Positions 12,408-25,881 of a DNA stretch of 64,000 nt are shown here, one piece after another. The notes under the pieces are model-generated. The model saw nothing but the letters and a program-made list of their open reading frames with translations. It did no database searches and was not told the origin of the DNA. Origin of the DNA: Maribacter spongiicola. GTDB taxonomy: Bacteria > Bacteroidota > Bacteroidia > Flavobacteriales > Flavobacteriaceae. The stretch spans positions 744,001 through 808,000 of the forward strand of contig NZ_SOAY01000011.1 in NCBI RefSeq assembly GCF_004364165.1, in the 5' to 3' direction. Position 1 is the first letter of the stretch. Every line of letters begins with the position of its first letter. The position numbers were made by a program, and so were the translations under genes.

Positions 12408-13163
12408 ATGATGACAAATAAAATGATCGGCATAGTTGGCGGAGTAGGTAGCTATGCCGGTATCGATTTAATTAAGAAAGTGTACGACTTAACCGAAGCT
12501 ACATCTGACCAAGACCATTTGCCTGTTTCTATGCTATCGGTGCCTCATAAAATTATTGACCGTACCAAATACCTTTTAGGTGAAACAGAAATTAATCCTG
12601 GTATTGCGATATCTGAAATTATAGCTTCTTTAATTGCCAGTGGTTCTAGTATTATAGGTATACCCTGTAACACTGCACATGCCAAGCCGATTTTAAGTTT
12701 AATTGAAAAAAGCATACCAGAATCATGTGTTTTAGTAAACCTTATTGAAGAAGTAGGATTATACATTTCTGAAAAGCATCCTGAAATTACTAGAGTAGGT
12801 GTACTGGGCACAACAGGTACTATTCTTGCGAAAGTTTACCCCGAAGTACTTGCTAAATATAATATTGAAGTGATTCAACCATCCGAAGATATTCAAGTTT
12901 TATTTGTGCATCCGTCTATTTACGATACCAGCTATGGTATTAAAGCTTTTTCAAATCCTGTAAATCAAAAAGCAAGAGAAAACCTAAGCATGGCAGCAAC
13001 CTATTTGTCTAGAAAAGGCGCCCAAGCCGTTATATTAGGTTGCACAGAAATTCCGTTAGCCATTCAATACGAAAAAATTGAAGACAGTTTAATTATCGAT
13101 GCAACCACAGTATTAGCACGAGCACTGATCAGGGAATCTAAAAAAATGGAAATGACTGCTTAG
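12408..13163 (+). CDS. Aspartate/glutamate racemase family protein
   Basis: 251 residues. The two-cysteine PLP-independent racemase signature is complete: GIPCNTAHA (Cys87) and ILGCTEIPL (Cys212), with an N-terminal IGIVGGVGSYAG. The motif set fits the broad-specificity YgeA/aspartate racemase group rather than MurI. It may be translated from the second of the tandem ATG codons at 12408/12411. It is transcribed away from the SDR gene and collides with the AraC gene: their stop codons overlap by four bases (13160-13163), so mutual transcriptional interference is possible. Confidence 0.88.
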   Translation: MMTNKMIGIVGGVGSYAGIDLIKKVYDLTEATSDQDHLPVSMLSVPHKIIDRTKYLLGETEINPGIAISEIIASLIASGSSIIGIPCNTAHAKPILSLIEKSIPESCVLVNLIEEVGLYISEKHPEITRVGVLGTTGTILAKVYPEVLAKYNIEVIQPSEDIQVLFVHPSIYDTSYGIKAFSNPVNQKARENLSMAATYLSRKGAQAVILGCTEIPLAIQYEKIEDSLIIDATTVLARALIRESKKMEMTA

Positions 13164-14056
13164 GCACTTGCCGTTGGTGAGCAAGATGCTCTTTTCAATA
13201 ACATGTATTCTCCCTTTATTTTAAAATCACGAATAGACGAACCTGTATAACGTTTAAAGGTTTTTGAAAGATGACTTACATCGGTAAAACCTAAATCATC
13301 TGCAATTTGGGTTAATGTGTAATCTGAGTTTAGAAGACGAATTTCTACAAGCTTCAACTTTGCTTTAATGATGTATTCTCGCAAAGACATGCTCACTTGC
13401 TTTTTAAAATATTCACTCACATATGTAGGCGACATCATAAAAACATCAGCTAAATTTTCAACTTTCAGTAATTCGGTTTTGTCAATATTTGTGTTGATAT
13501 AAGTCAGCATATTAGTAATTCTATCATCAGAATTGTTCTTTGGTAATTCAAAGTAGGTGCTCTTTTTAATATTGCGAATTAAAATCTCTAAAATACTGGT
13601 CATTAAACTAGTAACCAGGTTTATAGATTCTTCACCATAATTTCTAGATTCTTGAAGAATCATGCCAATAAGGTTTTCGAGATAATTTCGATCCAGTTCA
13701 TTTTTAATGATATCTCCTGGTAATTGGTTGTAATTAGATAAGATATACGAAGCTTCCTTAAACCATTCGTTTCTATCAATGGTTATTCTGTTCGCATTCT
13801 TAAAAAACGAATCGGTAAATTTTAGAAATACAAATCTGGTAGGTTTTTCTATAGTAAAAGAATGACATTTCAAAGGTGGTAACAAAAACATGCTATTCTT
13901 CTCATAAGTATAGTCATTATAGTTTATGCATTGTGTGCCTTCTCCATCTTTAATTAAAACCAGTTCAAAAAAATTGTTTTTAACGGGACGTTGTTTCCAA
14001 TCTGTCAACTCAATTTCTTGTATTTCAAAAGGTTTGTAGGCTTCTAATACTTGCAT
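13160..14056 (-). CDS. AraC-family transcriptional regulator (paralogue of the one at 21193)
   Basis: 298 residues. The N-terminal ~160 residues are a cupin-type effector domain (LVLIKDGEGTQCINYNDYTYEKNS style), and residues ~185-285 form the two-HTH AraC domain (LADVFMMSPTYVSEYFKK, then IADDLGFTDVSHLSKTFKRYTG). The recognition helix FTDVSHLSKTF is nearly the same as FTDSSHLNKTF in the AraC protein at 21193-22059, so both probably read similar half-sites. Four promoters nearby carry matching 21-bp-spaced TACC-type repeats, one directly across the divergent spacer, upstream of alkB. It likely activates stress genes in response to an unknown small molecule. Confidence 0.92.
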   Translation of the reverse strand: MQVLEAYKPFEIQEIELTDWKQRPVKNNFFELVLIKDGEGTQCINYNDYTYEKNSMFLLPPLKCHSFTIEKPTRFVFLKFTDSFFKNANRITIDRNEWFKEASYILSNYNQLPGDIIKNELDRNYLENLIGMILQESRNYGEESINLVTSLMTSILEILIRNIKKSTYFELPKNNSDDRITNMLTYINTNIDKTELLKVENLADVFMMSPTYVSEYFKKQVSMSLREYIIKAKLKLVEIRLLNSDYTLTQIADDLGFTDVSHLSKTFKRYTGSSIRDFKIKGEYMLLKRASCSPTASA

Positions 14057-14129
14057 TTACAGAATTATTAAAGGATATATCAGCTAAAATAGGTCAAATC
14101 TGTATTCACTATCAAAATTTAACCTTTAT

Positions 14130-14187
14130 TTATACAATTATCACCCATATAATTACCTATGGTTTTGCGGTAAAGCAAGTATCTTTG
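14130..14187 (+). promoter_or_regulatory. alkB promoter with AraC-like direct half-sites
   Basis: TATCTTTG at 14180-14187 is the -7 element. Half-sites TTTATACAA (T of TAC at 14133) and ATAATTACCTA (T of TACC at 14154) are 21 bp apart, and the proximal one is 26 bp from the -7. The -7 overlaps the upstream in-frame ATG at 14185's position, so translation must start later, at 14221. Confidence 0.6.
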
Positions 14188-14220
14188 TGTTGGCTTAAAA
14201 AACATAAAGCTTATTTACTC

Positions 14221-14850
14221 ATGGATATATTTAATCAAACCAATTTATTTTCAACAAAAGAAGTCTGTAAAACAGTATATGATTTACCAGGAGCAGATGT
14301 TACGTTGTTCGAAAATTTTTTCAATATAGAAGAAAGTAATAAGCTGTATAAGAGTTTATTAGAAAACACACCTTGGCAACAAGAGCAAATTATCATTCAC
14401 GGCAAACTGGTAGATTATCCTAGGTTAACCGCTTGGTATGGCGACATTAGTAAAGACATTCAATACACCAATACCAAAAGTAAAATGCATTTGTGGAACG
14501 ACGATTTACTTTTTATTAAAAATCGGATAGAGCAGGAGGTAGACGTCAAATTCTCACGTTGTCTTCTTAACTATTACAGAGACGGAAAAGACAGTGTAGA
14601 TTGGCATCAAGATTATAAAGGCGATCAACGTAAAAATACTGTAATTGCTTCGGTAACTTATGGAGCAACAAGACCTTTTCAGTTAAAACACGTATCTCGT
14701 AAAGATTTAAAACGTGTAGATATTCCTTTAGCAAATGGCAGTCTATTGTTGATGCAAGGTGCTACCCAAGAAAATTGGAAGCATAAAATTCCGAAAACGT
14801 CAAAACCAATATCGCCTAGAATTAACCTAACCTTTAGGTGGATTACATAG
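14221..14850 (+). CDS. alkB: AlkB-like alpha-ketoglutarate-dependent dioxygenase (alkylated DNA/RNA repair)
   Basis: 209 residues from the ATG at 14221; the longer in-frame start at 14185 lies inside the promoter -7 element and is rejected. The Fe(II) ligands are His129-x-Asp131 in VDWHQDYKGD and His188 in NWKHKIPK; the 2OG-binding arginines are Arg200 and Arg206 in SPRINLTFRWI. YPRLTAWYGD is the nucleotide-lid region of the AlkB/ALKBH2 type. The enzyme removes methyl or etheno groups from DNA bases by oxidative dealkylation. Its promoter carries the AraC-like half-sites shared with neighbouring redox genes, which links alkylation repair to the same inducer; it is divergent from the araC gene. 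Confidence 0.93.
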   Translation: MDIFNQTNLFSTKEVCKTVYDLPGADVTLFENFFNIEESNKLYKSLLENTPWQQEQIIIHGKLVDYPRLTAWYGDISKDIQYTNTKSKMHLWNDDLLFIKNRIEQEVDVKFSRCLLNYYRDGKDSVDWHQDYKGDQRKNTVIASVTYGATRPFQLKHVSRKDLKRVDIPLANGSLLLMQGATQENWKHKIPKTSKPISPRINLTFRWIT

Positions 14851-14910
14851 TCTTTCGTTCATCAATCTTTATATTTATACACCAATTGTAGAATCTATTT
14901 GAAATATCTT

Positions 14911-15210
14911 ATGAAAAAATCATATTTAACCCTTGTAGTAAACGTTGTAGTAAAAGAGGAATTTAGAGAAGAAATAAAATCAGAATTGCTGAAACTAGTA
15001 GGTCCTACTAGAGGCGAAGAAGGCAATATTGCTTACGATTTGCATCAAGATAACGAGAATCCCAATTTATTTTTATTCCACGAAAAATGGGTAAATCAAG
15101 CGTATTTAGACAAACATTCTCAAAGTAGCCATATAGCGGTGTATAGAGTAGCATCCAAAGACAAATTAGAAAATTTAAGTGCTTATAAAATGACTGAGTT
15201 AACTGCTTAG
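14911..15210 (+). CDS. Antibiotic biosynthesis monooxygenase (ABM) family protein, YgiN-like
   Basis: 99 residues from the ATG at 14911 (a TTG at 14899 is in frame but less likely). It is a single ABM ferredoxin-like domain: VNVVVKEEFREEIKSELLKLV, GNIAYDLHQDNENPNLFLFHEKW and HSQSSHIAVYR, with the conserved internal His/Trp pattern. Relatives include the putative quinol monooxygenase YgiN, which works on quinols and is often placed beside quinone reductases, as here. It lies 60 bp after alkB with no terminator between, so it may share that transcript. Confidence 0.85.
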   Translation: MKKSYLTLVVNVVVKEEFREEIKSELLKLVGPTRGEEGNIAYDLHQDNENPNLFLFHEKWVNQAYLDKHSQSSHIAVYRVASKDKLENLSAYKMTELTA

Positions 15211-15321
15211 TTTGTATTTATAAAGGTTTGCTATATAATTCAAGTATTTAAAACCTTAGTTTTTACTTGTTATAATTACGTATTAGGAAAATTTTAAGAT
15301 TTATCCCTTAAAAAACCTCTA

Positions 15322-15381
15322 TTTATACCAACATCACCTCTTTTTGTACTCAAATTTGGCGGTATCACCTATTTATCTTTG
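15322..15381 (+). promoter_or_regulatory. Nitroreductase operon promoter with 21-bp-spaced AraC-like half-sites
   Basis: TATCTTTG at 15374-15381 is the -7 element. Half-sites TTTATACCAA (T of TACC at 15326) and TTTTGTACTCA (T of TACT at 15347) are exactly 21 bp apart; the proximal one is exactly 27 bp from the -7. The same geometry recurs at 22.5 and 24.8 kb. The predicted transcript starts near 15388, which decides the start codon at 15419. Confidence 0.7.
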
Positions 15382-15418
15382 TTCTATAATATTCAATCAA
15401 CATAGTAAAAAGATAAAA

Positions 15419-16078
15419 ATGAATTTAAACGATACATTAAACTGGAGATACACTACAAAGGAATACGACATCACTAAGAAAATATGTGATGCAGATATGG
15501 CTGAAGTCAAAAACTTGTTGAGAATGAGCCCTTCAAGTGTAAATCTTCAACCTTGGCACTTTATAGTTGCCGAAACTACAGAAGGTAAGGCACGTATTGC
15601 AAAAGGAACACAAGGCTTTTTTAGTTTCAATGAGCCAAAAATAACTAATGCTTCTGCTGTTGTATTGTTTTGTTCAAAGATTGATGCAGATGACGCATAC
15701 TACCAGCATATTGCAGATACTGAAGATAAAGACGGAAGATTCCCTAATGAAGATATTAAAAACGGATTTCTAGGCGCTGTTAAAGCTTTTACAGGTATTC
15801 ATAAATACGATTTAAAGGATTTACAACACTGGATGGAAAAGCAGGTATACCTTAACATTGGTAGCTTTTTGTTAGGTGTTGCTAGTTTAGGTTTGGATGC
15901 AACACCAATGGAAGGTATTGATGTAAAGGCATTAGATGAAGAATTCGGATTAAGAGAAAAAGGATACACGTCATTAGTAGCTGTGTCTTTAGGATACAGA
16001 GCGCAATCCGATTTTAATTCTACCGAAAAAACACCAAAATCAAGATTAGCTGAAAGTGAAATTTTCACATTACTATAA
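15419..16078 (+). CDS. Oxygen-insensitive NAD(P)H nitroreductase, NfsB-like
   Basis: 219 residues from the ATG at 15419; the frame is open back to 15344 but that start precedes the promoter. Features of the NfsB/FRase I group are LNWRYTTKEYD at the N-terminus (FMN phosphate contacts), SPSSVNLQPWHFIV, a long central insertion (HIADTEDKDGRF) and GLDATPMEGIDVKALDEEFGLREKGYTSLVAVSLGYR at the FMN-binding C-terminal part. It is an FMN homodimer that reduces nitroaromatics and quinones by two electrons. It is first in a four-gene run (nitroreductase, MDR reductase, cupin, bicupin) and has the AraC-like promoter described above. Confidence 0.92.
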   Translation: MNLNDTLNWRYTTKEYDITKKICDADMAEVKNLLRMSPSSVNLQPWHFIVAETTEGKARIAKGTQGFFSFNEPKITNASAVVLFCSKIDADDAYYQHIADTEDKDGRFPNEDIKNGFLGAVKAFTGIHKYDLKDLQHWMEKQVYLNIGSFLLGVASLGLDATPMEGIDVKALDEEFGLREKGYTSLVAVSLGYRAQSDFNSTEKTPKSRLAESEIFTLL

Positions 16079-16098
16079 TTTCAAAATTTACAATTCAG

Positions 16099-17106
16099 AT
16101 GAAAGCAATAGGATATAAAGAGAATCTACCGATTGATAATATAAAATCGCTACAAGACATCACTTTAGATACGCCAAAAGCAACTGGAAGAGATATTCTA
16201 GTAGAAGTGAAAGCGATTTCAGTAAACCCTGTAGATTACAAAGTACGTGCCAATATGCCTGTAGAAGGTGATGATTGGAAAGTAATCGGTTGGGATGCAA
16301 CGGGAATTGTAACTGCTATTGGAGAAGATGTTACGCTATTTAAAGTGGGTGACGAGGTTTGGTATGCAGGTGATTTAACACGTCAAGGTAGTAATGCAGA
16401 ATATCAAGTTGTAGATGAGCGTATTGTGGGTAAAAAACCTGCAAGTTTATCATTTGCTGAAGCTGCTGCTTTACCATTAACTACACTTACAGCTTATGAA
16501 ATGTTGTTTCACAGATTACAAGTTTCTAAAGATGATGCCAACAAATCTATTTTAGTAATTGGTGCTGCTGGTGGTGTAGGTTCAATTTTGGTGCAATTGG
16601 CTAAAAAGCTGACAAAACTGCATATTATTGGTACCGCTTCTCGCGAAGAAACTACCGATTGGTTAAAAGAGTTAGGTGCAGATACGGTTATCAATCATAG
16701 ACATAAACTCAATGATGAGTTTGAAAAATATAACCTACCAGCTCCCGAATATGTGGTGAGTTTAAACGCTACCGAACATCATGTAGATGAAATTGTAAAA
16801 CTGATTAAACCTCAAGGTAAATTCGGATTTATTGATGACCCAAAAGTGATGAATGTGATGCCTTTTAAAGGGAAAGCAGTTTCTACGCATATCGAGTTAA
16901 TGTTCACACGTTCTATGTTTCAGACAGATGATATGATAGAACAGCATAACATTTTAAACGAGGTTTCTGAATTAATTGATAACGGAACCGTTAGAACCAC
17001 TTTGGGCGAAAACTTTGGAACTATAAATGCCGAAAACTTAAGAAAAGCACATGCTTTTTTAGAAACTGGTAAAGCAAAAGGTAAAATTGTTTTAGAAGGA
17101 TTTTAG
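16099..17106 (+). CDS. Zinc-type alcohol dehydrogenase family / quinone oxidoreductase (MDR)
   Basis: 335 residues of the medium-chain reductase family. N-terminal GroES-like part: VEVKAISVNPVDYKVRANMP and VIGWDATGIVTAIGEDVTLFKVGDEVWYAGD; Rossmann part: ILVIGAAGGVGSILVQLAKK, then TASREETTDWLKELGADTVINH. The sequence fits the zinc-binding-ADH-family (QOR-like) subgroup with a C-terminal TGKAKGKIVLEGF. Catalytic zinc ligands of true ADHs are not evident, so it is probably an NADPH:quinone or enone reductase. It starts 20 bp after the nitroreductase and is co-transcribed with it. Confidence 0.9.
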   Translation: MKAIGYKENLPIDNIKSLQDITLDTPKATGRDILVEVKAISVNPVDYKVRANMPVEGDDWKVIGWDATGIVTAIGEDVTLFKVGDEVWYAGDLTRQGSNAEYQVVDERIVGKKPASLSFAEAAALPLTTLTAYEMLFHRLQVSKDDANKSILVIGAAGGVGSILVQLAKKLTKLHIIGTASREETTDWLKELGADTVINHRHKLNDEFEKYNLPAPEYVVSLNATEHHVDEIVKLIKPQGKFGFIDDPKVMNVMPFKGKAVSTHIELMFTRSMFQTDDMIEQHNILNEVSELIDNGTVRTTLGENFGTINAENLRKAHAFLETGKAKGKIVLEGF

Positions 17107-17134
17107 GCTCAATGAGTCAAATAAATTAAGTAAA

Positions 17135-17611
17135 ATGAAAAACACATTAGCAGCATTAGCTGTGACAGCATTATTTGCCAGTTACACAGCAAATGCACAA
17201 GTAAATACGATAGATTCTATAGCCACTTCGAAAGTGCAACATTTCAATTTTGATGAAATGGAATCGGAAACTATTGGTGAAGGAATTAAACGCAAGTGGT
17301 TTCACGGTCAAAAAGGACAAATGACGATTTTCAATTTAGAAAAAGACGCGCATATTCCTTGGCACAAACACCCAAACGAGCAGATAACATACATAATGTC
17401 TGGTAAGGTTAAAATCAAGACTATTATTGATGGTAAAGAGGAATTTGTAGAAGTTGGAGCAGGAGAAGTGATTGTTTTTCCTGAAAATGTACCTCACGAA
17501 TTTTGGGCATTAGAAGAAACTGTAGATTTAGATGTTCACGTTCCTGTTCGTGAAGATTGGTTGTCTAAAGAGCTACCAGATTATTTAAAAAAGACAGAAA
17601 AACAAGATTAA
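17135..17611 (+). CDS. Exported cupin-domain protein
   Basis: 158 residues. A Sec signal peptide (KNTLAALAVTALFASYTANAQ) is followed by one cupin barrel. Motif 1, WHKHPNEQITYIMSGKVKIKT, carries the His/His/Glu metal ligands, and motif 2, GEVIVFPENVPHEFWALE, the fourth histidine, so a metal site is likely. Small exported cupins of this type can be dioxygenases, isomerases or quercetinase-like enzymes; substrate is unknown. It is third in the nitroreductase operon, 28 bp after the MDR gene, and precedes a second exported cupin by 21 bp. Confidence 0.87.
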   Translation: MKNTLAALAVTALFASYTANAQVNTIDSIATSKVQHFNFDEMESETIGEGIKRKWFHGQKGQMTIFNLEKDAHIPWHKHPNEQITYIMSGKVKIKTIIDGKEEFVEVGAGEVIVFPENVPHEFWALEETVDLDVHVPVREDWLSKELPDYLKKTEKQD

Positions 17612-17632
17612 TACTATTTATAAAACTTTAAA

Positions 17633-18469
17633 ATGAAAAAAAGTATCTTAATCGCATTGGCATTAGTCGCAGGCTTTTATGCAAATGCACAGACACCAAC
17701 TACAGATGCTGCAAAATCTATAAATGAAGTAGTAACCGCAGACAACGTAGAATGGGGATGGTTAAATCCGTTACGAGGCGATAAAAGTCCGGCTGCAGGA
17801 AAACTTTGGGGAGATCGTACCAAAAACGGACCAGCAGGATTTTTAGTAAAATTCAACAAAGGATTTTCTTCGCCACCACACATTCACAATATTACCTATC
17901 GTGGAGTAGTAATTCAAGGTTTATTACATAATGATGATGAACAAGCAGCAAAACAATGGTTGCCAGCAGGTTCTTATTGGCAACAACCAGCAGGAGAAGC
18001 ACACATAACTGCTGCAGATGGTCAAGAAAATATGGCTTTTTTAGATATTCAAGAAGGACCGTATTTAGTAAAACCAACTTCAGAAGCTTTTGATAATGGA
18101 GAGCGTCCAGTAAATGTAGATAAATCGAATTTGGTTTGGTTAAATGCTAACGATATTGAATGGGTTTCTGCAAAGAGTAATGTTGAAACTGCTTTTTTAT
18201 GGGGAAGCCACGAAAAAAATCAATTGCGTGCAACGCTTTTAAGATTACCAGCAGGTTTTAAAGGTAAAATTAAAAATTTGAGTCCAAATTTTAGAGCAGT
18301 TGTTATTTCTGGAGGATTAACACACCAGTTTTCTAAAAAAGGTGCAGTAAACCAATTAGATGCGCCATCTTATTTTGGTGCAGAAGAAAATGCAACTTCA
18401 ATAATTTCAGCAGAAAAAGAAACTGTGCTTTATATTAGAAGCAACGGAGATTTTGAAGTGAATATTTAA
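17633..18469 (+). CDS. DUF4437 exported bicupin protein
   Basis: 278 residues. A signal peptide (KKSILIALALVAGFYANAQ) precedes two cupin-like halves. NPLRGDKSPAAGKLWGDR, then PPHIHNITYRGVVIQGLLHNDD and GSYWQQPAGEAHITAADG are the hallmark of DUF4437, a family related to ChrR-type cupins. The second half (ANDIEWV...AFLWGSH...LRATLLRLPAGFKGKI) is less metal-rich. Function is not established; metal binding through the first half is likely. It is the last gene in the nitroreductase operon. After it, a 9-bp inverted repeat (18475-18483 / 18497-18505) without a T-tract may mark the mRNA end. Confidence 0.85.
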   Translation: MKKSILIALALVAGFYANAQTPTTDAAKSINEVVTADNVEWGWLNPLRGDKSPAAGKLWGDRTKNGPAGFLVKFNKGFSSPPHIHNITYRGVVIQGLLHNDDEQAAKQWLPAGSYWQQPAGEAHITAADGQENMAFLDIQEGPYLVKPTSEAFDNGERPVNVDKSNLVWLNANDIEWVSAKSNVETAFLWGSHEKNQLRATLLRLPAGFKGKIKNLSPNFRAVVISGGLTHQFSKKGAVNQLDAPSYFGAEENATSIISAEKETVLYIRSNGDFEVNI

Positions 18470-18723
18470 ATTATTTAGGTTGACGTATTTCGATTATCAA
18501 CCTAATACAAACTTAGTTTTTAGATGACTTGAGCTAATAGATGTAGAAATTTTTAAGGTTTTCGTAATTAGTAAAACAAATCTTACAGATTTAAAATTAG
18601 GAACTAAAAGTATTAATAATTATTGTAAATGAGCTATTTACAGATTATGAACAGCTAGTAAAAATCAATTTCTATGCTTAATTTGTCGGGGAAGTTTAAA
18701 AATTAAATTAAAAATAAAGGAAA

Positions 18724-19197
18724 ATGAAAACAAACATCGGAATTACAGAAGAAAACAGAGAAAAAGTTGCTGAACATTTATCTAAAATTTTGGCAGATGA
18801 ATATGTAATTTACACTAAGACATTAAGAGCGCATTGGAATTTAGAAGGTATTGATTTTCATACCAAACATGTATTTTTTGAAGACCATTACAATGCTATA
18901 AAAGAATTTACTGATGGGGTAGCAGAACGTATTCGTAAAATTGGTCATTATGCTCCAGCTACTTTAAAGCAATTTTTACAACTTACACATCTTTCCGAAG
19001 AAATAGAAGGTGACAATTCTAGTTTAAACTACATGAAAGTCTTGTTACAAGACCACGATACCATCATTGTAGAAATTAGAAAAATTATACCTACTATTGA
19101 AGATGATTTAAATGATGTAGGTACAGCAGATTTTCTTACGGGTTTATTACAAGAACATGAAGAAATGGCTTGGATGTTACGTGCTAGTGTAAGTTAA
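18724..19197 (+). CDS. dps: Dps family ferritin-like DNA-protection protein
   Basis: 157 residues of the Dps/MrgA family. The inter-subunit ferroxidase site is seen in RAHWNLEG (His37), HTKHVFFEDHYNAIKEF (His49) and TDGVAERIRKIG (Asp64, Glu68). Dps dodecamers oxidise Fe(II) with hydrogen peroxide and store iron, protecting DNA. The N-terminal tail is short with one or two Lys residues, so DNA binding is not assured. A 254-bp spacer separates it from the previous operon; no clear TAnnTTTG is seen in it. It is followed by the UBP zinc finger, reductase and AraC genes on the same strand. Confidence 0.94.
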   Translation: MKTNIGITEENREKVAEHLSKILADEYVIYTKTLRAHWNLEGIDFHTKHVFFEDHYNAIKEFTDGVAERIRKIGHYAPATLKQFLQLTHLSEEIEGDNSSLNYMKVLLQDHDTIIVEIRKIIPTIEDDLNDVGTADFLTGLLQEHEEMAWMLRASVS

Positions 19198-19249
19198 ACT
19201 TCACTGGTAATTTTCAACTTCTTATTTAAATTTTTAATACCAAAAAGCC

Positions 19250-19519
19250 ATGCAGCAAGAATCTTGTAGTCATATCAATGCTATTTCAGAATTAAAAACG
19301 GCTACCAAGCATGTGTGTGAAGAATGTGTAAAACTCGGCGATGGTTGGGTTCATTTAAGAACATGTCAAGAATGTGGCGTAACGCTTTGTTGTGACGACT
19401 CTAAAAATAAGCATGCTACTGCACATAATCATACTACGGGTCACCCGGTAATTAGTTCTGCAGAACCTAATGAACGGTGGCTTTGGTGTTATGCAGATAA
19501 AGCTTTTGTAACCTACTAA
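19250..19519 (+). CDS. UBP-type (ubiquitin-hydrolase-like) zinc finger protein
   Basis: 89 residues consisting of one ZnF-UBP domain: CSHI near residue 5, CEECVKLGDGWVHLRTCQECGVTLCCD, then HATAHNHTTGHPV and WLWCYADKAFV. The Cys/His spacing matches the domain that in eukaryotes binds ubiquitin C-termini. In bacteria such small proteins are often encoded beside the cyclic-nucleotide-domain thioredoxin-reductase-like enzyme, exactly as here (12 bp upstream of it), so a partner or regulatory role for that reductase is likely. No ubiquitin system is visible. Confidence 0.9.
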   Translation: MQQESCSHINAISELKTATKHVCEECVKLGDGWVHLRTCQECGVTLCCDDSKNKHATAHNHTTGHPVISSAEPNERWLWCYADKAFVTY

Positions 19520-19531
19520 ACCAAACTAAAT

Positions 19532-21178
19532 ATGATAGATGCCAGATTCCCTGAACTCACCAATCAACAAGTAGAAAAGTTGAAAGGTTATGGTATTGTA
19601 GAGAATTTTGAAATTCCTACTACGATACTAGATTATGGTGATAAGAGATATGATTTTTTTGTTGTTTTAGAAGGAGGTATTAAAATTATTGACCCAGAGA
19701 AGGACAAGGGCAATGTTACCATTCATGGTAGGCATCAATTTTCAGGGTCTAGTAGTATTCTTTCTCACCGAGCTATTGGAGTACGTGGAGAAACATTAAA
19801 AAACACTCAAGTAATACGCATAAAGCCAGACCAGTTAAAAAAAGCTATTTCAAAGTTTAGTGATATTAGCGATTTACTTTTAAACGCATTTTTATTGCGC
19901 GAAGAAAGTTTAAAAAACAGTATACAAGGGGTCAAGTTAATAGGTTCGGAACATTCTAATGAAACGTATGCTATTCGCGATTTCATGGACAAAAATGACA
20001 TTCTATATACTTTTGTCGATTCGGATAAAGATGATGGACTTAAAAGTATATTAGAAGCTTTTGACTTGAAAGAATCAGATTTACCTGTTATGATTAATAG
20101 TCAGAATGAGATTTCTATTCGTCCTTCTATTGATGAAATAGGGGAGTGTTCTGGTGTTCGATTAAAGTTAGATGATGAAATTTATGATGTATTGGTGATT
20201 GGTGCGGGACCAGCAGGTTTAGCTGCCAGTGTGTATGCTTCATCTGAAGGATTAAAAGTATTGACCATTGATAGTAATTCTCCTGGAGGACAAGCTGGTA
20301 AGAGTTCTAAAATTGAAAACTACCTCGGGTTTCCTACGGGAATTTCCGGTAGAGATTTAGCGAATAACGGCTACATACAAGCACAAAAATTTGGGTGTAC
20401 CATTTCGGTACCGCATAGGGTTGAAAGTATTCAAAAAAATGCAGGTCTTTATGAGGTAAATGCAAGCAATACATCAACTTTAAAGGCACGTACAGTTATT
20501 GCTGCAACAGGTGCGGCATATAGAAGATTGCCATTAGATGGTATAGAAAAATATGAAGGTGCAGGTATTTATTATAGCGCAACTTCTATGCATGCCAATA
20601 TGTGTAAAAACAGTGAAATTGGTATTGTGGGCGGAGGAAATTCCGCAGGACAAGCGGCATTATTCTTGGCAAATTACGCACATAAAGTCTATATAATTAT
20701 TAGAAAAGAAGATATAGGTGCAAAAATGAGCGACTATTTGGTTCAGCGAATTATTGCTTGTGAAAACATTGAAGTATTGACCAATAGCAACGTGGTCAAA
20801 GTAGATGGTGATACCTATTTAGAAAAAGTTGACATCAAACAAAAAGACACTCTTGTACCTAATGAAATAAGCTATCTTTTTACTTTTGTTGGTGCAAAAC
20901 CATGTACAGAATGGCTAGATAATATTATTGATACTGATGCGAAAGGTTTTGTACATACGGGACTCACCATTTGCGATAATGCTTTAAATAGCGAATCAGA
21001 ATTTAGCCAGAGAAAACCATACACTTTTGAAACCAGTTTACCAGGATTATTTGCAGTTGGTGATGTACGCTCGGGTTCTGTAAAGCGTGTAGCATCAGCC
21101 GTTGGAGAAGGCTCTATTGTGGTAAGCGATATTCATAAGTTTCTGGCGCAAGATAAATTTGCTACTACCACCAATTAA
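19532..21178 (+). CDS. cNMP-binding-domain thioredoxin-reductase-like FAD oxidoreductase
   Basis: 548 residues in three parts: a Crp-type cyclic-nucleotide-binding fold (about 20-135, FFVVLEGGIKIID, SGSSSILSHR), a thioredoxin-like linker domain (about 137-205), and a pyridine-nucleotide-disulfide oxidoreductase domain with FAD motif GAGPAG at 224-229 and NADPH motif GGGNSAG near 367. The redox CxxC of true thioredoxin reductase is replaced by SATSMHANMCKN, leaving one cysteine (358), as is usual for this fused family. The electron acceptor is therefore not ordinary thioredoxin. It lies between the UBP zinc finger and the AraC gene (14 bp spacing) and is probably part of one stress operon with them. 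Confidence 0.9.
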   Translation: MIDARFPELTNQQVEKLKGYGIVENFEIPTTILDYGDKRYDFFVVLEGGIKIIDPEKDKGNVTIHGRHQFSGSSSILSHRAIGVRGETLKNTQVIRIKPDQLKKAISKFSDISDLLLNAFLLREESLKNSIQGVKLIGSEHSNETYAIRDFMDKNDILYTFVDSDKDDGLKSILEAFDLKESDLPVMINSQNEISIRPSIDEIGECSGVRLKLDDEIYDVLVIGAGPAGLAASVYASSEGLKVLTIDSNSPGGQAGKSSKIENYLGFPTGISGRDLANNGYIQAQKFGCTISVPHRVESIQKNAGLYEVNASNTSTLKARTVIAATGAAYRRLPLDGIEKYEGAGIYYSATSMHANMCKNSEIGIVGGGNSAGQAALFLANYAHKVYIIIRKEDIGAKMSDYLVQRIIACENIEVLTNSNVVKVDGDTYLEKVDIKQKDTLVPNEISYLFTFVGAKPCTEWLDNIIDTDAKGFVHTGLTICDNALNSESEFSQRKPYTFETSLPGLFAVGDVRSGSVKRVASAVGEGSIVVSDIHKFLAQDKFATTTN

Positions 21179-21192
21179 ACCATCTATGCAAT

Positions 21193-22059
21193 ATGGCGCG
21201 TACTATCATAGAAAATATTGTAATTGCGAAATACGAAGAACAAACTTTTTTTGAGTTTTGTAAATACACGACCATTCGTTTTTTCGAAATTGTATATTTT
21301 GAAAAGGGAACAGGAACGATTAAGATCAATGGCAAAACCGTACCCTACGCTGCAAATAGTGTTTTTGTTTTTATACCTGATGATATTTATATCGTGAACC
21401 CTGATTCCGCGACGACTACTGTGGCTATAAAATTCTTAAAAAGCTTCTTTAGAAATACATCGGCTCAGAACGAAACACTGCCCGTTAACAATTGGTTTCG
21501 AAAAATTGAAGAAATATTAAATAGCGAAAGTCATCAGCTTCGCGAAATGCAATTTGAAACTGAATCAGATAGGTCGCATCTGGTATCTTTAATTAATATG
21601 GTTGCCACTGAATATATGAGAGAGCAGACCTTTGATATTTTTATCATTCAAAACTCTGTATCGGTTATTCTACATCTTATTGCGAGAAATATTCAGTTTA
21701 TCAATACTGCCGACACTGTAAAGGAGGTTAAATCATCTAAGATTCAGCAAATCATAAATTTTATTCACGCTAATATTTATAATTCCGAATTGCTAACTAC
21801 CAAAAGTCTGGCAGAGGAGTTTCATATGGCAGATAATTATATGAGTGAATACTTTAAAAAGCATACCGATGTCTCTTTAAAGAAATACATTATCAACTAT
21901 AAATTAAAACTTGTTGAAACCCGATTAAAATATACCGACTTACAGTTTTCGGAAATCGCAATAGAGCTTGGCTTTACGGATAGCAGTCACTTAAACAAAA
22001 CCTTCCAAAGTTATAAAGGAATGACGATTGGGGCTTTTAAGGCTAGTATTTCAGCTTAG
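21193..22059 (+). CDS. AraC-family transcriptional regulator (paralogue of the one at 13160)
   Basis: 288 residues with an N-terminal cupin-like sensor (VYFEKGTGTIKINGKTVPYAANSVFVFIPDD) and a C-terminal AraC double HTH (LAEEFHMADNYMSEYFKKH, IAIELGFTDSSHLNKTFQSYKG). It aligns over its whole length with the AraC protein at 13160-14056, including the recognition helix, so the two arose by duplication. It is the final gene of the dps/UBP/reductase run, 14 bp after the reductase. The operator-bearing promoter of the enoyl-CoA-hydratase-like gene lies about 480 bp downstream, making that gene a likely target. Confidence 0.92.
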   Translation: MARTIIENIVIAKYEEQTFFEFCKYTTIRFFEIVYFEKGTGTIKINGKTVPYAANSVFVFIPDDIYIVNPDSATTTVAIKFLKSFFRNTSAQNETLPVNNWFRKIEEILNSESHQLREMQFETESDRSHLVSLINMVATEYMREQTFDIFIIQNSVSVILHLIARNIQFINTADTVKEVKSSKIQQIINFIHANIYNSELLTTKSLAEEFHMADNYMSEYFKKHTDVSLKKYIINYKLKLVETRLKYTDLQFSEIAIELGFTDSSHLNKTFQSYKGMTIGAFKASISA

Positions 22060-22064
22060 AGAAA

Positions 22065-22475
22065 TTAAATACCGTCAAAAATTCCTGATACGAATTCTCC
22101 AACGCCTTCTAGTAAACCATCAAACACATCCCCAAAATCTAACCAAGAAGCATCTATATCCAAGTCCGGTATATCGGTCCAGTCAGTTACCGTAGAAACT
22201 GATAATCCGCTTAGCATTTCTGTTTTCATAGCTACATAATCACAAACCTCCCCTGTTTTTTCATGGTACAAATCAAAGTCTGTATGTGATGAGAAAATAC
22301 TCAATGCCCAACAAGACCAATCCACATAATCATACCATTTACTGTTTCTGTGCGCTTTTTTCACTTCTTCGGGCGTATAGTATTTCTTCTTACCGTTATC
22401 CTTTACTAGTATTTCACCTATATCAGAAATGAATTCTCTTTTATTCTGTGGTGCGGATTCGCAAGATGTTCTCAT
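22065..22475 (-). CDS. Conserved-looking hypothetical protein
   Basis: 136 residues, not recognised. It has a polar N-terminus with KDNGKKKYYTPEEVKKAHRNSKWYDY, then a Trp/Cys-rich centre (DWSCWALSIFSSHTDFDLYHEKTGEVCDY) and a C-terminal acidic, glycine-containing amphipathic tail (DFGDVFDGLLEGVGEFVSG). There is no signal peptide. Composition is protein-like and no opposing gene covers it, so I take it as real. It converges on the AraC gene, their stops being 5 bp apart, and stands alone on the minus strand within a plus-strand region. Function unknown. Confidence 0.65.
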   Translation of the reverse strand: MRTSCESAPQNKREFISDIGEILVKDNGKKKYYTPEEVKKAHRNSKWYDYVDWSCWALSIFSSHTDFDLYHEKTGEVCDYVAMKTEMLSGLSVSTVTDWTDIPDLDIDASWLDFGDVFDGLLEGVGEFVSGIFDGI

Positions 22476-22540
22476 AGAAATTTTGATTATAAAGCTGATT
22501 AAATTAGTTACTTAAACTTGAAAAAATACCATTTACCTCT

Positions 22541-22601
22541 TTTTTTACCAAAAGCACTTTGTTTTTTACCCATTTGAACCTTGTGTCCCCAGATACCTTT
22601 G
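22541..22601 (+). promoter_or_regulatory. Promoter of the enoyl-CoA-hydratase-like gene with 21-bp-spaced AraC-like half-sites
   Basis: TACCTTTG at 22594-22601 is the -7 element, with TTTG (22573-22576) 17 bp upstream as the -33. Half-sites TTTTTTACCA (T of TACC at 22546) and TTTTTTACCCA (T of TACC at 22567) are identical over nine bases and exactly 21 bp apart; the proximal one is exactly 27 bp from the -7. Confidence 0.75.
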
Positions 22602-22646
22602 TACTGTAATTAATACAGAACGAATAGCAACCAAAAATAAAATATT

Positions 22647-23492
22647 ATGGACTACAAGAACTTTCAAACATTTACAGCAGAACAAAAAGGCGGAATTTTA
22701 ACAGTTGACATCAACTTCGGACCAGTAAATGTACAGGGACAAGAAATGTTAGCAGATTTAAGCAGCTTATGCTTACGACTAGAGCGTGATAGAAGCGTAA
22801 AAGTAGTGGTTTTTGAATCTTCAAATCCGGGGTATTGGGTATGTCATTATGATACCGATTTATTAAAAGATATGTCTACCGAAGCTGTACCAAGAAACGA
22901 AGTACAGTTGTTGGATTTACAATCTGTTTTGGAGAGATTAAGCAATGTACCCCAAGCAACCATCGCAAAAATTGAGGGATTTGCAAGAGGTGGCGGACAC
23001 GAAATGGCATTAGCATTAGATATGCGTTTTGCAGCAAGAGGAAAAGCCAAATTCATGCAAATGGAAGTAGGTATGGGCATTTTACCTTGTGGAGGTGGTG
23101 CATCTCGTATGGCTAGACAAGCAGGATTAGGAAAAGCATTAGAAATTATTTTAGGTGCAAGAGATTGGGATGCTGATGAAGCTGAAAAATTTGGAACCAT
23201 AAATAAAGCCTTAGATGCGGATGAAATTGGTGCTTATGTAGATGCTTTAGCAGAACGAATTTCAAAATTTCCGGCAGAGTCCATTGCAGCATGTAAACGT
23301 GCAGTATATGCATCCATAGATTTACCAATAAAAGAAGCATTAAAAGAGGAAGCATACCAATTATTTCAAGCGACAAGTAAAACTCCGGCAGTAAAACGTT
23401 TCCAATATGCAGATGATAACGGAGCACAATTTGACCATAACAACCAAAAGAATTGGGAACAAATGGTAATGGATATTCAAGAAGTGAATTAA
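22647..23492 (+). CDS. Enoyl-CoA hydratase/isomerase (crotonase) family protein
   Basis: 281 residues with a crotonase fold: VKVVVFESSNPGYWVCHYDTDLL for the first CoA/oxyanion segment and IAKIEGFARGGGHEMALALDMRFAARGKAKFMQMEVGMGILPCGGGASRMARQAG for the second. The usual catalytic glutamates of enoyl-CoA hydratase (EVxxG and xxPExxLG) are replaced by MEVGMGILPCGGG, so it may not be a fatty-acid hydratase; several crotonase relatives without them are hydrolases, isomerases or of unknown function. It is preceded by the best AraC-like promoter of the window and followed, after a repeat-filled spacer, by a quinone-oxidoreductase-like gene. Confidence 0.88.
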   Translation: MDYKNFQTFTAEQKGGILTVDINFGPVNVQGQEMLADLSSLCLRLERDRSVKVVVFESSNPGYWVCHYDTDLLKDMSTEAVPRNEVQLLDLQSVLERLSNVPQATIAKIEGFARGGGHEMALALDMRFAARGKAKFMQMEVGMGILPCGGGASRMARQAGLGKALEIILGARDWDADEAEKFGTINKALDADEIGAYVDALAERISKFPAESIAACKRAVYASIDLPIKEALKEEAYQLFQATSKTPAVKRFQYADDNGAQFDHNNQKNWEQMVMDIQEVN

Positions 23493-23561
23493 GGCGATGA
23501 GCGCCATACGCTTTGCGCATAGCGCTTTTCAGTTTTTGCGTAGAGCGTCTAGCGCACAGCG
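23493..23561. repeat. GC-rich imperfect repeat block (GCGCATAGCGC-type)
   Basis: About 70 bp much richer in GC than the surroundings and built from related words: GAGCGCCATACGC, TTTGCGCATAGCGC, TTTTGCGTAGAGCG, TCTAGCGCACAGCG. It directly abuts the heptad array to its right. The words look like decayed tandem units of about 14 bp. It is non-coding; the function is unknown. Confidence 0.6.
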
Positions 23562-23659
23562 AAAAACGAAAAACCAACAACGAACAACCAACAACGAACA
23601 ACCAACAACGAACAACCAACAACCAACAACGAACAACAAACAACGAACAACCAACAACA
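23562..23659. repeat. Fourteen-copy tandem heptanucleotide repeat (AACAACC/AACAACG)
   Basis: 98 bp made of 14 direct 7-mers: two degenerate AAAAACN copies followed by twelve AACAACN copies. The last base mostly alternates G and C, so the larger unit is 14 bp. It sits between the crotonase-like gene and the quinone-oxidoreductase-like gene, ending 32 bp before the latter's ATG. On the minus strand it reads through as short Cys/Trp/Val/Leu-rich frames that are artefacts of the repeat. Confidence 0.95.
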
Positions 23660-23691
23660 ATTAAAAATTAACAAAATAAAAGAAGATAGAA

Positions 23692-24675
23692 ATGAAAGCA
23701 ATGTTACTAAGTGAATACGGAGAAAGCGCAAATTTCGAAGTATTAGAAATAGCAAAACCAGCAATAAAAGCAAATCACGTATTGGTGAAAATAGCAGCGT
23801 CAAGTGTCAATACTATTGATATGATGATTAAGAATATGGGGTCAGATTTACCATTATCGCCTGCTGCACCAGCCTTATTAGGTATGGATTTCTCAGGAAC
23901 AGTAGAAGCTGTTGGAGAAGGGGTAGAGGGATATAAAGTTGGCGATGAAGTATACGGTTGTGCTGGCGGATTAGCAGATTTACCTGGTACATTAACAGAA
24001 TACATTGTTGCCGATAGGAGTTTAATTGGTCACAAACCAAAAGACTTGACTATGCGTGAAACTGCAGCTTTACCTTTAGTTGCAATTACAGCTTATGAAG
24101 GGTTGACAAGAGCAGGCGTAAAAGCAGGACAAAAAATATTAATACACGGAGGTTCTGGTGGTGTTGGTCACTTAGCGGTACAATTGGCGAAATACTTTGG
24201 AGCAGAAGTTTATGCAACAGGAACAGGCGACAAACAAAAAGCGATTATTGAGAAATTTGGAGCAACCTTTATTGATTTTACTATAGAAAAAGCAGCAGAT
24301 TACACAGCAAAATACACCGATGGTGGTTTTGATGTTGTTTTTGATACTGTTGGTGGTCCAAACCTGACTAACTCTATGGAAGCAGTTGCCTTAAACGGAC
24401 ACATTTCTACTACAGTTTCCTTGTTGGAAATCGATTTAACTCCGTTGCACTTTAAAGGAGCGTCATTACACGTGGTCTTTATGTTGATCCCGATGTTACA
24501 TAACTTCAAAAGAGAAAAACACGGTAGTATTTTAGAAAAATTAGCTGAAATTTCTAACGAAGGTCATTTAACCCCGATTGTAGATGAAAATCAATTTTCA
24601 TTAGAACAAGTCGGCGATGCTTATGCACACTTAGCTAGTGGTACAGCCATTGGTAAAGTTGTGGTTGAAAACTAA
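23692..24675 (+). CDS. NADPH:quinone oxidoreductase-like MDR reductase
   Basis: 327 residues, QOR-type medium-chain reductase. KIAASSVNTIDMMIKNMG and LLGMDFSGTVEAVGEGVEGYKVGDEVYGCAGG are the GroES-like half; LIHGGSGGVGHLAVQLAKYFGAEVYATG and DVVFDTVGG the NADPH-binding half; the C-terminus GTAIGKVVVEN is standard. No structural or catalytic zinc ligands are seen. It should reduce quinones or enones with NADPH. The upstream spacer holds the GC-rich block and the heptad array; no separate promoter was recognised, so it may depend on the crotonase-gene promoter. A strong terminator follows. Confidence 0.9.
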   Translation: MKAMLLSEYGESANFEVLEIAKPAIKANHVLVKIAASSVNTIDMMIKNMGSDLPLSPAAPALLGMDFSGTVEAVGEGVEGYKVGDEVYGCAGGLADLPGTLTEYIVADRSLIGHKPKDLTMRETAALPLVAITAYEGLTRAGVKAGQKILIHGGSGGVGHLAVQLAKYFGAEVYATGTGDKQKAIIEKFGATFIDFTIEKAADYTAKYTDGGFDVVFDTVGGPNLTNSMEAVALNGHISTTVSLLEIDLTPLHFKGASLHVVFMLIPMLHNFKREKHGSILEKLAEISNEGHLTPIVDENQFSLEQVGDAYAHLASGTAIGKVVVEN

Positions 24676-24745
24676 TAATAGATAATAAATATGCAGTAGG
24701 ATTAGAGTTGCACGCTCTAAACATGCCGATTAATATGTTTTGTTG

Positions 24746-24772
24746 AATGCCCCAGAAATGGGGCATTTTTTT
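24746..24772 (+). terminator. Terminator after the quinone-oxidoreductase-like gene
   Basis: An 8-bp GC-containing stem (AATGCCCC at 24746-24753 with GGGGCATT at 24760-24767), a 6-nt loop and a T-tract to 24772, about 70 bp after the stop codon. Confidence 0.92.
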
Positions 24773-24791
24773 GCTTTAAAATAAAACCTTG

Positions 24792-24852
24792 AAATTTACC
24801 TAAACAACCGTTTTTACTACCAAAAAATTACTGGTGTCTCATACTACCTTTG
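24792..24852 (+). promoter_or_regulatory. Promoter of the 2OG-oxygenase operon with 21-bp-spaced AraC-like half-sites
   Basis: TACCTTTG at 24845-24852 is the -7 element. Half-sites AATTTACCTAA (T of TACC at 24797) and TTTACTACCAA (T of TACC at 24818) are exactly 21 bp apart; the proximal one is exactly 27 bp from the -7, the same geometry as at 15.3 and 22.5 kb. Confidence 0.7.
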
Positions 24853-24918: not shown

Positions 24919-25881
24919 ATGAAAACAATAACAAATATTAATGCACTCGCACAAGCTCGTGCGCTTACACTACCAACTCGCGAAGCTTCACTAAATCGTG
25001 ATCCTTCTGTGTCACAATTTTGGAATAGTAACCGAGAGTTACTTGAAAATGCATGGAGCGAATGGGAAATAGAAAACAAAGACAGTTTATTAATTCCTGA
25101 TGAAACGCTACTTGACCCAAAATTGAGAAAAGCGATAAACGATGCTTGGGAAAATCCAGAAAAAGAAAACGCTGTAGCTGATTTATGGGAAGAGATTATC
25201 CCTGGAGTATATTCTGCTCAGTTTTTTGATTTAGAACGCTTAGCAGAGTTTCGCAAGTATTTAGAGGCTACTGTAAATTCTGAAATCCCTAGACGTGCAC
25301 CTTATGGTATTCAATTGAATCGTCATGGCGTTATGCTAGATCCGCGATCAGAAGGTCACCTTGCAGCACCTAATTTTCAGGCATTTTACAACGAAATCAT
25401 GGATCGTTATATGCGTCCAATCGCTCGTTTGTTATTGGGTACTTATGGTTATGACAATCAGACATTTGGATTCTCTATTCAGTACAATCCAGATAAAGAC
25501 AAAGATTTACATGCCCATACGGATGCTTCGGCTGCTACCTTGAATATCAATATCAACTTACCTGATGAAGGATTTACAGGTTCACAAGTGGATTTTCACG
25601 ATACAACTACAAGAAAGGTTGTTCAAACTATCTTTGAACCAGGAAAAGCAATAATTCACACTGGGAAAGTACCACATGCTACACACCCAATTACTAGCGG
25701 ACAACGTAGTAACTTAGTAGTGTGGCTATACGGAGACCGTATGCAAATACCGCGAGGTGGTGCAAGTAGCTATGGTAGTGTTGATAATTCAGCCGCTAAA
25801 GTTGTTACAACGGAAAACGTAACCGCTCGCGAGCGTTGGAGTATACCAAATAGCCCTAAGGATTCCTTTGCACCGTTTTAA
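24919..25881 (+). CDS. 2OG-Fe(II) oxygenase superfamily protein
   Basis: 320 residues from the ATG at 24919 (an upstream TTG at 24898 is in frame). The double-stranded beta-helix motif is His200-x-Asp202 in LHAHTDASAATLNININL and a distal His (253 or 256) in IIHTGKVPHATHPITSGQRSNLVVWLYG, with Arg263 placed to bind 2-oxoglutarate. GSQVDFHD is a typical turn before the distal half. The pattern fits prolyl-4-hydroxylase-like enzymes. The N-terminal ~90 residues are helical and not recognised. Substrate is unknown. It is first in a run with an SDR and a broken phytase-like gene and is preceded by an AraC-like promoter. Confidence 0.85.
   Translation: MKTITNINALAQARALTLPTREASLNRDPSVSQFWNSNRELLENAWSEWEIENKDSLLIPDETLLDPKLRKAINDAWENPEKENAVADLWEEIIPGVYSAQFFDLERLAEFRKYLEATVNSEIPRRAPYGIQLNRHGVMLDPRSEGHLAAPNFQAFYNEIMDRYMRPIARLLLGTYGYDNQTFGFSIQYNPDKDKDLHAHTDASAATLNININLPDEGFTGSQVDFHDTTTRKVVQTIFEPGKAIIHTGKVPHATHPITSGQRSNLVVWLYGDRMQIPRGGASSYGSVDNSAAKVVTTENVTARERWSIPNSPKDSFAPF

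Follow-up and report, generated by a model that had tools for sequence, protein, structure and literature searches.

A putative AraC-family operator of fixed geometry at promoters beside two paralogous regulator genes in Maribacter spongiicola

The window analysed here, a stretch of 64,000 nucleotides (contig C2:744001-808000) of the 4.46-Mb genome of Maribacter spongiicola (G000), carries two genes for AraC/XylS-family regulators, AraC1 and AraC2. Beside them lie an alkB-like gene divergent from AraC1, an operon that begins with a nitroreductase (NTR) and continues with the zinc-type oxidoreductase QOR1 and the cupins cupA and cupB, a crotonase-like gene (CRO) followed by a second zinc-type oxidoreductase (QOR2), and a 2-oxoglutarate (2OG)-oxygenase-like gene (OGO) followed by a short-chain dehydrogenase (SDR2). 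A pair of direct half-sites at a fixed distance from a −7 box precedes NTR, CRO, and OGO and, in a weaker form, alkB. AraC-type regulators abound in Bacteroidota, but to our knowledge few operators of the family have been resolved to single bases in this group.

The T residues of the two half-sites lie at 15326 and 15347 in the NTR promoter (−7 box at 15374), at 22546 and 22567 in the CRO promoter (−7 box at 22594), and at 24797 and 24818 in the OGO promoter (−7 box at 24845), which gives spacings of 21 and 27 bp in all three cases. In the alkB promoter, the corresponding positions are 14133, 14154, and 14180, with spacings of 21 and 26 bp. These positions had been read from the letters in the original prediction, and all of them were confirmed. 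The short pattern TAC-21-TAC-27-TAnCTTTG was found three times in the window compared to 0.007 expected, and four times on both strands of the genome compared to 0.48 expected (expectations computed with independent letter groups). Furthermore, 598 spacing combinations were tested in the window, and none but (21,27) occurred more than once.

The full motif was read from orthologous promoters by adding to the window the CRO regions of 11 further genomes, of which 10 have the cluster and one, G038, has CRO on its own. The exact pattern of 21 and 27 bp was present in 11 of 12 CRO promoters (exception: G038), in 10 of 11 OGO promoters (exception: G033), and in 11 of 12 NTR rows (exception: a second NfsB copy in G023). 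A set of 32 orthologous sites (29 unique) was chosen on TAC, TAC, and TAnnTTTG only. Outside these positions, CCT at −10 to −8 and C at 11 were present in all 32 sites, the A preceding CCT in 31, and TTT at 16 to 18 in at least 30. Since these letters are conserved without having been selected for, they indicate that the half-site is ACCT-N7-TACC, that is, two boxes one helical turn apart, repeated at 21 bp. The distal half is better conserved than the proximal copy, and the sigma-A −7 box TAnnTTTG follows 27 bp from the second TAC. The resulting 35-bp pattern, ACCTn5TnTACn8CYn3TTTn2TAC, was used in place of the consensus TTTnnTACCnA of the original prediction, of which TACC survives as one half of the half-site. 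Exact matches occur three times in the genome, all at the NTR, CRO, and OGO promoters; a single match with one mismatch lies outside the cluster, without a −7 box within 45 bp, and 22 matches have two mismatches, the alkB operator being one of them. The fourth genome match of the short pattern (C2:669881, minus strand) has no ACCT box and was taken as chance.

AraC2 has its nearest named relatives in Maribacter and Zobellia. An AraC alignment, with relatives chosen via two peptides of the DNA-binding domain, found 92 in named genomes, and the best 80 of these comprise 48 AraC2 orthologues (75 to 95%) and 32 distant AraCs. The 48 AraC2 loci contain 109 sites with at most one mismatch, 79 of them exact, all on the strand of AraC2. 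Every locus has a site and 39 of the 48 have an exact one, so that the pattern is conserved in orthologous promoters, as the original prediction required. TAnnTTTG lies at 27 bp in 105 of the 109 sites and in 77 of the 79 exact ones. In the 32 distant-AraC loci, the 35-bp motif has no exact match and two with one mismatch. When sites with two mismatches and a −7 box were included, 118 sites were kept in the 48 loci; the first gene after them is OGO (38), CRO (36), NTR or a replacement nitroreductase (25), an MRJP/SMP-30-like gene (4), bestrophin (3), QOR2 (3), ABM (3), AlkB (1), an aldo-keto reductase (1), or an unassigned gene (4). The site adjacent to AraC2 persists where CRO is absent and OGO or QOR2 comes next.

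AraC1 and AraC2 are 35 to 38% identical, and sites are conserved beside both, in agreement with the proposed involvement of two AraC paralogues. A loose form of the operator, read divergently, lies within 300 bp upstream of 28 of 31 unique AraC1 orthologues, in 20 of the 28 at 64 to 67 bp from the start codon, and it is retained irrespective of the gene on its far side. The −7 box is 27 bp away in 17 cases, 26 bp in 5, and 25 bp in 1. AraC2 as the sole regulator was ruled out, with AraC1 present farther off in G023, G028, and G036. Pfam finds the AraC-type DNA-binding domain PF12833 in both proteins. The structure model of AraC2 (mean pLDDT 74.6) predicts a cupin-type sensor domain plus a domain with two helix-turn-helix (HTH) motifs. 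In Foldseek, the best domain matches were 3lsg (TMt 0.93, rmsd 1.3) and the regulatory domains of RhaR, BgaR, and AraC, and the best E-values belonged to full-length AraC-family proteins (TM about 0.35). Together with the PF02311 match, the model points to an N-terminal cupin-like effector/dimerization domain in AraC2. In AraC1, the Pfam search gave no PF02311 match, and the protein can be aligned over its length.

Across 249 family genomes, a search for the motif together with its −7 box, allowing up to two mismatches, gave 46 matches, compared to 9 for the reversed pattern. A site is present in 14 of 14 genomes with AraC2 and in 9 of 235 others (nominal p 3e-17), and an exact one in 11 of 14 and 1 of 235, respectively. 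AraC1 was searched in 25 of the 249 genomes. Among the nine AraC2-negative genomes with a site, G130, G221, G299, and G237 have AraC1 beside a site and G252 and G108 an AraC2-like gene (46 to 49%); neither an AraC1 nor an AraC2-like gene was found in G155, G217, and G225. G237, which has AraC1 only, carries sites on four contigs, before NTR, cupB, QOR1, and OGO.

In 7 of 11 syntenic clusters, the NfsB-type NTR is swapped for a non-orthologous nitroreductase that is only 26 to 28% identical, and the same operator is kept. This replacement gene has a site in 12 of 12 genomes with AraC1 (−7 box at 27 bp in 11) and in none of three without it (nominal p 0.002), namely G103 and G187, which have AraC2 only, and G027, which has neither. 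In 4 of the 12 (G293, G036, G237, and G186), the NTR site is present although AraC1 is located elsewhere. For OGO, two genomes with neither AraC at E<=1e-40, G148 and G294, have no site within 420 bp.

Another element was seen upstream of the nitroreductase in the three AraC1-less genomes (L215, L219, L226): a conserved palindrome, GACCGTTATTG, with inverted TACTATC...GATAGTA around TATACTTTTG, and a similar one precedes the second NfsB copy of G023. In these genomes, another regulator may control the nitroreductase.

The sites beside the two regulators differ in sequence. Those beside AraC1 (24 unique) and those beside AraC2 (33 unique) were fully separated in a leave-one-out comparison, a result inflated by shared ancestry. 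NTR sites not beside an AraC were AraC1-like in 21 of 21 cases (16 unique), and OGO sites not beside an AraC were weakly AraC2-like in 28 cases and AraC1-like in 10, that of the window included. Four CRO sites called AraC2-like are orthologues of a training promoter and hence no test. OGO has a site in the AraC1-only genome G237 and in the AraC2-only genomes G097 and G230, and therefore, targets can be shared. These comparisons give moderate support to AraC1 as the putative regulator of NTR, AraC2 as that of CRO, and either of them for OGO.

The sigma-A element TAnnTTTG of Flavobacterium psychrophilum lies at −12 to −5 (PMC9723704). Together with the fixed distance of 27 bp, this position would place the half-sites at about −71 to −57 and −50 to −36, the proximal one adjoining the −35 region. 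Such a placement appears to match AraC/XylS-type activation with the proximal subunit at the −35 region, as do direct two-box half-sites one turn apart with a repeat of about 21 bp, and the original reading of an AraC-type layout, with half-sites two turns apart, thus seems well founded. TTG at 17 to 22 bp from the −7 box is present in only 2 of 110 unique site-promoters, compared to 12.9% of 1394 TAnnTTTG in the loci. The near absence of a −33 element would fit dependence on an activator.

Related layouts are known. XylS responds to benzoate-type inducers; the araI1-araI2 half-sites of Escherichia coli AraC have a 21-bp period with the proximal half at −35; and SoxS, MarA, and Rob are AraC-family regulators of stress genes with an nfsB-type nitroreductase among their targets. 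A close parallel is MtlR at PmtlE of Pseudomonas fluorescens, for which PMC4514859 gives two direct 15-bp half-sites of two boxes each at −72 to −58 and −50 to −36, the upstream one being stronger; here, too, two-box 15-bp half-sites are paired at nearly equal predicted positions, with the distal one better conserved. Unlike our operator, that of MtlR has AGTGC-N5-AGTAT boxes, a 22-bp period, a −35 box, and mannitol-type inducers. XylS at Pm uses TGCA-N6-GGNTA-N6-TGCA-N6-GGNTA, a two-box half-site repeated at 21 bp like the ACCT-N7-TACC-N6 repeat described here (PMC4514859), whereas its sequence differs and its promoter is proteobacterial. For E. coli AraC, the half-sites are given as TAGC-N7-... 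(PMC4514859). The regulatory-domain fold modeled for AraC2 resembles that of E. coli AraC (TMt about 0.6), but identity over the aligned domain is 12 to 14%, and the E. coli inducer is arabinose. A looping site did not come to light here, though no search was directed at one. SoxS, MarA, and Rob bind single asymmetric sites, such as GCAC-N7-CAA, as monomers (PMC4514859). The system described here differs in its predicted cupin-type sensor domain and in its conserved pair of half-sites, which would speak against such monomeric binding. In the open-licence literature searched, no listed title or abstract opening named a regulator of the AraC1/AraC2 type or an ACCT-N7-TACC operator. The operator layout belongs to a known kind, but the regulator family and its signal seem undescribed.

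In our model, which we consider very probable, the four promoters are AraC/XylS-type activated promoters of class II layout that belong to two paralogous regulators. Each AraC subunit would bind one 15-bp half-site by placing its two HTHs in successive turns of the major groove, and a second subunit would follow in head-to-tail orientation at a distance of 21 bp. Contact with RNA polymerase would be made by the proximal subunit, and because the promoter has no −33 element, we propose that transcription requires the activator in its ligand-bound state. The NTR-QOR1-cupin operon and the gene divergent from AraC1, here alkB, are most likely under the control of AraC1; AraC2 would control the CRO-QOR2 operon 3' of its gene; and either protein may govern the OGO-SDR2 operon. 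Taken as a set, an NfsB-type nitroreductase, zinc-type oxidoreductases, cupins, and a short-chain dehydrogenase suggest a response to quinones, nitroaromatics, or similar electrophiles. A single motif of fixed geometry that can be read across 48 named AraC2 loci is directly testable; it predicts targets and helps to separate the two paralogues, and naturally occurring losses and gene replacements can serve as controls. Should a quinone, a nitroaromatic, or an algal phenolic prove to be the inducer, the system would reveal how such compounds are sensed by these marine bacteria, and it would add an inducible promoter to the sparse genetic tools for the group. A Zobellia cluster induced on macroalgae, zgal_1071-1105 (PMC9296495), is a lead only for a possible counterpart of the AraC cluster.

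A number of findings weigh against the pattern or the model. In the genome, the half-site TTTnnTACCnA taken singly shows hardly any enrichment (580 compared to 545), and the short pattern at up to one mismatch is not enriched (21 matches compared to 26 in the reversed control); the originally proposed consensus alone is therefore unspecific. The 35-bp motif at up to two mismatches gives 26 matches in total compared to 31 in the reversed control, and a genome-wide regulon in the M. spongiicola genome is unsupported. Because the sites share descent, their counts are not independent, and the p-values should be read as nominal. The site lies directly between AraC1 and NTR in 8 of the 12 AraC1-containing genomes and may therefore have disappeared together with AraC1 and its surroundings as a single DNA segment. 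Likely chance matches in G155 and G217 were also called AraC1-like by the dialect classifier, and low AraC1-like scores therefore carry little weight. A looser pattern finds a site within 300 bp 3' of the gene in only 34 of 50 AraC2 orthologues, and the loose form is missing from 9 of 32 distant AraCs. Upstream of AraC2 itself, no ACC[TC]-N7-TAC was found within 200 bp in the orthologues examined, and autoregulation from this region was rejected. Of 18 OGO genes, only 12 possess a site of their own within 420 bp; in G103, G187, G108, and G252, which have AraC2 or its like, OGO has no separate site (in G103 and G187, OGO comes after CRO). No site precedes the second NfsB copy in G023, the OGO gene in G033, or the CRO gene in G038, a genome with AraC1 (76%) and an AraC2-like gene (54%).

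It is imaginable that all four promoters, including that of alkB, respond to one inducer through both AraC proteins, as originally predicted. The half-site grammar common to the four promoters and the OGO sites, which are divided between the two dialects and present in genomes with either regulator alone, would be in line with a single regulon of this kind. However, NTR sites follow the presence of AraC1 and not that of AraC2, the nitroreductase being without a site in the AraC2-only genomes G103 and G187; sites adjacent to AraC1 and AraC2 differ in sequence, in part through shared ancestry; and the alkB site is confined to a few clusters, always beside AraC1. We regard one regulon with one inducer as unlikely.

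Another regulator of the same type might bind the sites, with AraC1 and AraC2 as mere neighbors in a co-inherited cluster. Physical linkage indeed accounts for much of the co-occurrence, and G225, in which an exact operator and a non-standard −7 box precede NTR, contains no AraC of the family at E<=1e-40. This explanation appears improbable to us, as the site keeps its place beside AraC1, AraC2, and the distant AraCs while the genes beyond change, and as unlinked sites exist in the AraC1-only genome G237. Even less probable is similarity by descent of duplicated or inherited promoters without regulation. Sites within one promoter class are orthologous, and their similarity is expected, but the grammar of two boxes with 21 and 27 bp recurs before unrelated genes and before AraCs that are only 33 to 39% identical, with varying spacer sequence, and the missing −33 element fits activator dependence.

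The reading of two regulators with activated promoters may extend beyond the family. Among the 32 distant AraCs (Chitinophagaceae, Cytophagales, and some Flavobacteriia), which were picked by DNA-binding peptides, 23 have the loose form of the operator, compared to 7 of 3150 shuffled windows, and in 22 it abuts the start codon. A −7-like NAnnTTT[G/A] lies at 27 bp in 19 of them, mostly as GAnnTTTG or CAnnTTT[G/A], and 11 of the 23 are divergent from a QOR2 homologue. In a tree of 108 rows with some long branches, AraC1 and AraC2 each fall into a supported group of their own, with 31 of the 32 distant rows in a third. Tentatively, and with somewhat less than even confidence, we suggest that these proteins are an old Bacteroidota AraC subfamily with one grammar (ACC-N8-TAC, 21-bp period, 27 bp to a −7-type box, no −33 element) for sensing stress from quinones or other electrophiles, a counterpart of SoxS/MarA that evolved separately. 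In Flavobacteriaceae, it would have split into two paralogues, with operators drifting into two dialects and targets partly shared; if true, this would be a natural system for watching regulator-operator specificity evolve. The 9 of 32 distant AraCs without the loose site lie before genes that we take to be MFS-like (4) and DoxX-like (5); the presumed DoxX-like group has a near form of the motif that fails at the last TAC. Two Sporocytophaga loci (L182 and L185, minus strand) carry a one-mismatch motif just upstream of AraC, with a −7-like box at 26 bp, followed by a presumably DoxX-like gene.

The alkB promoter stands apart. Its operator has two mismatches to the 35-bp motif, and sites are present at only 3 of 9 alkB promoters in clusters (G000, G021, and G007), all beside AraC1, with a −7 spacing of 25 to 26 bp and a poor proximal half; that of G007 has two mismatches and a −7 box at 25 bp. 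The alkB promoters of G025 and G033 lack the exact pattern though AraC1 or a fragment of it adjoins, and those of G018, G023, G028, and G036 have no site. For these reasons, alkylation repair as a shared theme of the regulon, as first envisaged, is doubtful. Ada, the regulator of the adaptive response, joins an AraC-type HTH to methyltransferase domains and controls alkB; in AraC1 and AraC2, Pfam finds just AraC-type domains.

Table 1. Genes, candidate operators, and −7 boxes in the window (window positions)
Feature	Position	Strand	Basis
AraC1, AraC/XylS-family regulator, divergent from alkB	13160..14056	-	PF12833 8.8e-17
alkB candidate operator, half-sites 21 bp apart, proximal half degenerate (2 mismatches), adjoins AraC1	14122..14156	+	motif match
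alkB −7 box TATCTTTG, 26 bp from second TAC	14180..14187	+	sequence
alkB-like 2OG-Fe(II) oxygenase	14221..14850	+	PF13532 3.7e-31; far under NCBIfam AlkB cut-offs
NTR operon candidate operator, exact motif	15315..15349	+	motif match
NTR −7 box TATCTTTG, 27 bp from second TAC	15374..15381	+	sequence
NTR, NfsB-type nitroreductase, first gene of operon	15419..16078	+	NF008275 298.9 bits, cut-off 227
QOR1, cupA, cupB (DUF4437), probable NTR operon (close spacing)	16099..18469	+	QOR1 above TIGR02817 cut-off
AraC2, AraC/XylS-family regulator	21193..22059	+	PF12833 1.3e-15, PF02311 2.6e-6, structure model
CRO operon candidate operator, exact motif	22535..22569	+	motif match
CRO −7 box TACCTTTG, 27 bp from second TAC	22594..22601	+	sequence
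CRO, crotonase-like protein	22647..23492	+	PF00378 5.2e-31
QOR2, zinc-type oxidoreductase, 199 bp after CRO	23692..24675	+	PF00107, PF08240, PF13602; under NCBIfam cut-offs
OGO operon candidate operator, exact motif	24786..24820	+	motif match
OGO −7 box TACCTTTG, 27 bp from second TAC	24845..24852	+	sequence
OGO, 2OG-oxygenase-like	24922..25881	+	distant procollagen lysyl hydroxylase match 6ax6, 1.7e-7; Pfam match below cut-off
SDR2, short-chain dehydrogenase, likely OGO operon	25958..26743	+	PF00106 2.7e-32

The CRO of G038 (G038:C1:1637272-1638114) lies in the genome of another family, is 93% identical to that of the window, and has neither the operator nor the remaining cluster within 20 kb, which suggests recent transfer or strong constraint. 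On the minus strand of the window, a 136-aa antisense open reading frame without a Pfam match occupies 22065-22475, between AraC2 and the CRO promoter, and an 86% relative lies at the same place in G018. Between CRO and QOR2 (23500-23680), a simple-repeat run of the CAACGAACAACCAACAACG type adjoins GC-rich inverted stretches, and related repeats precede QOR2 in G007 and G018.

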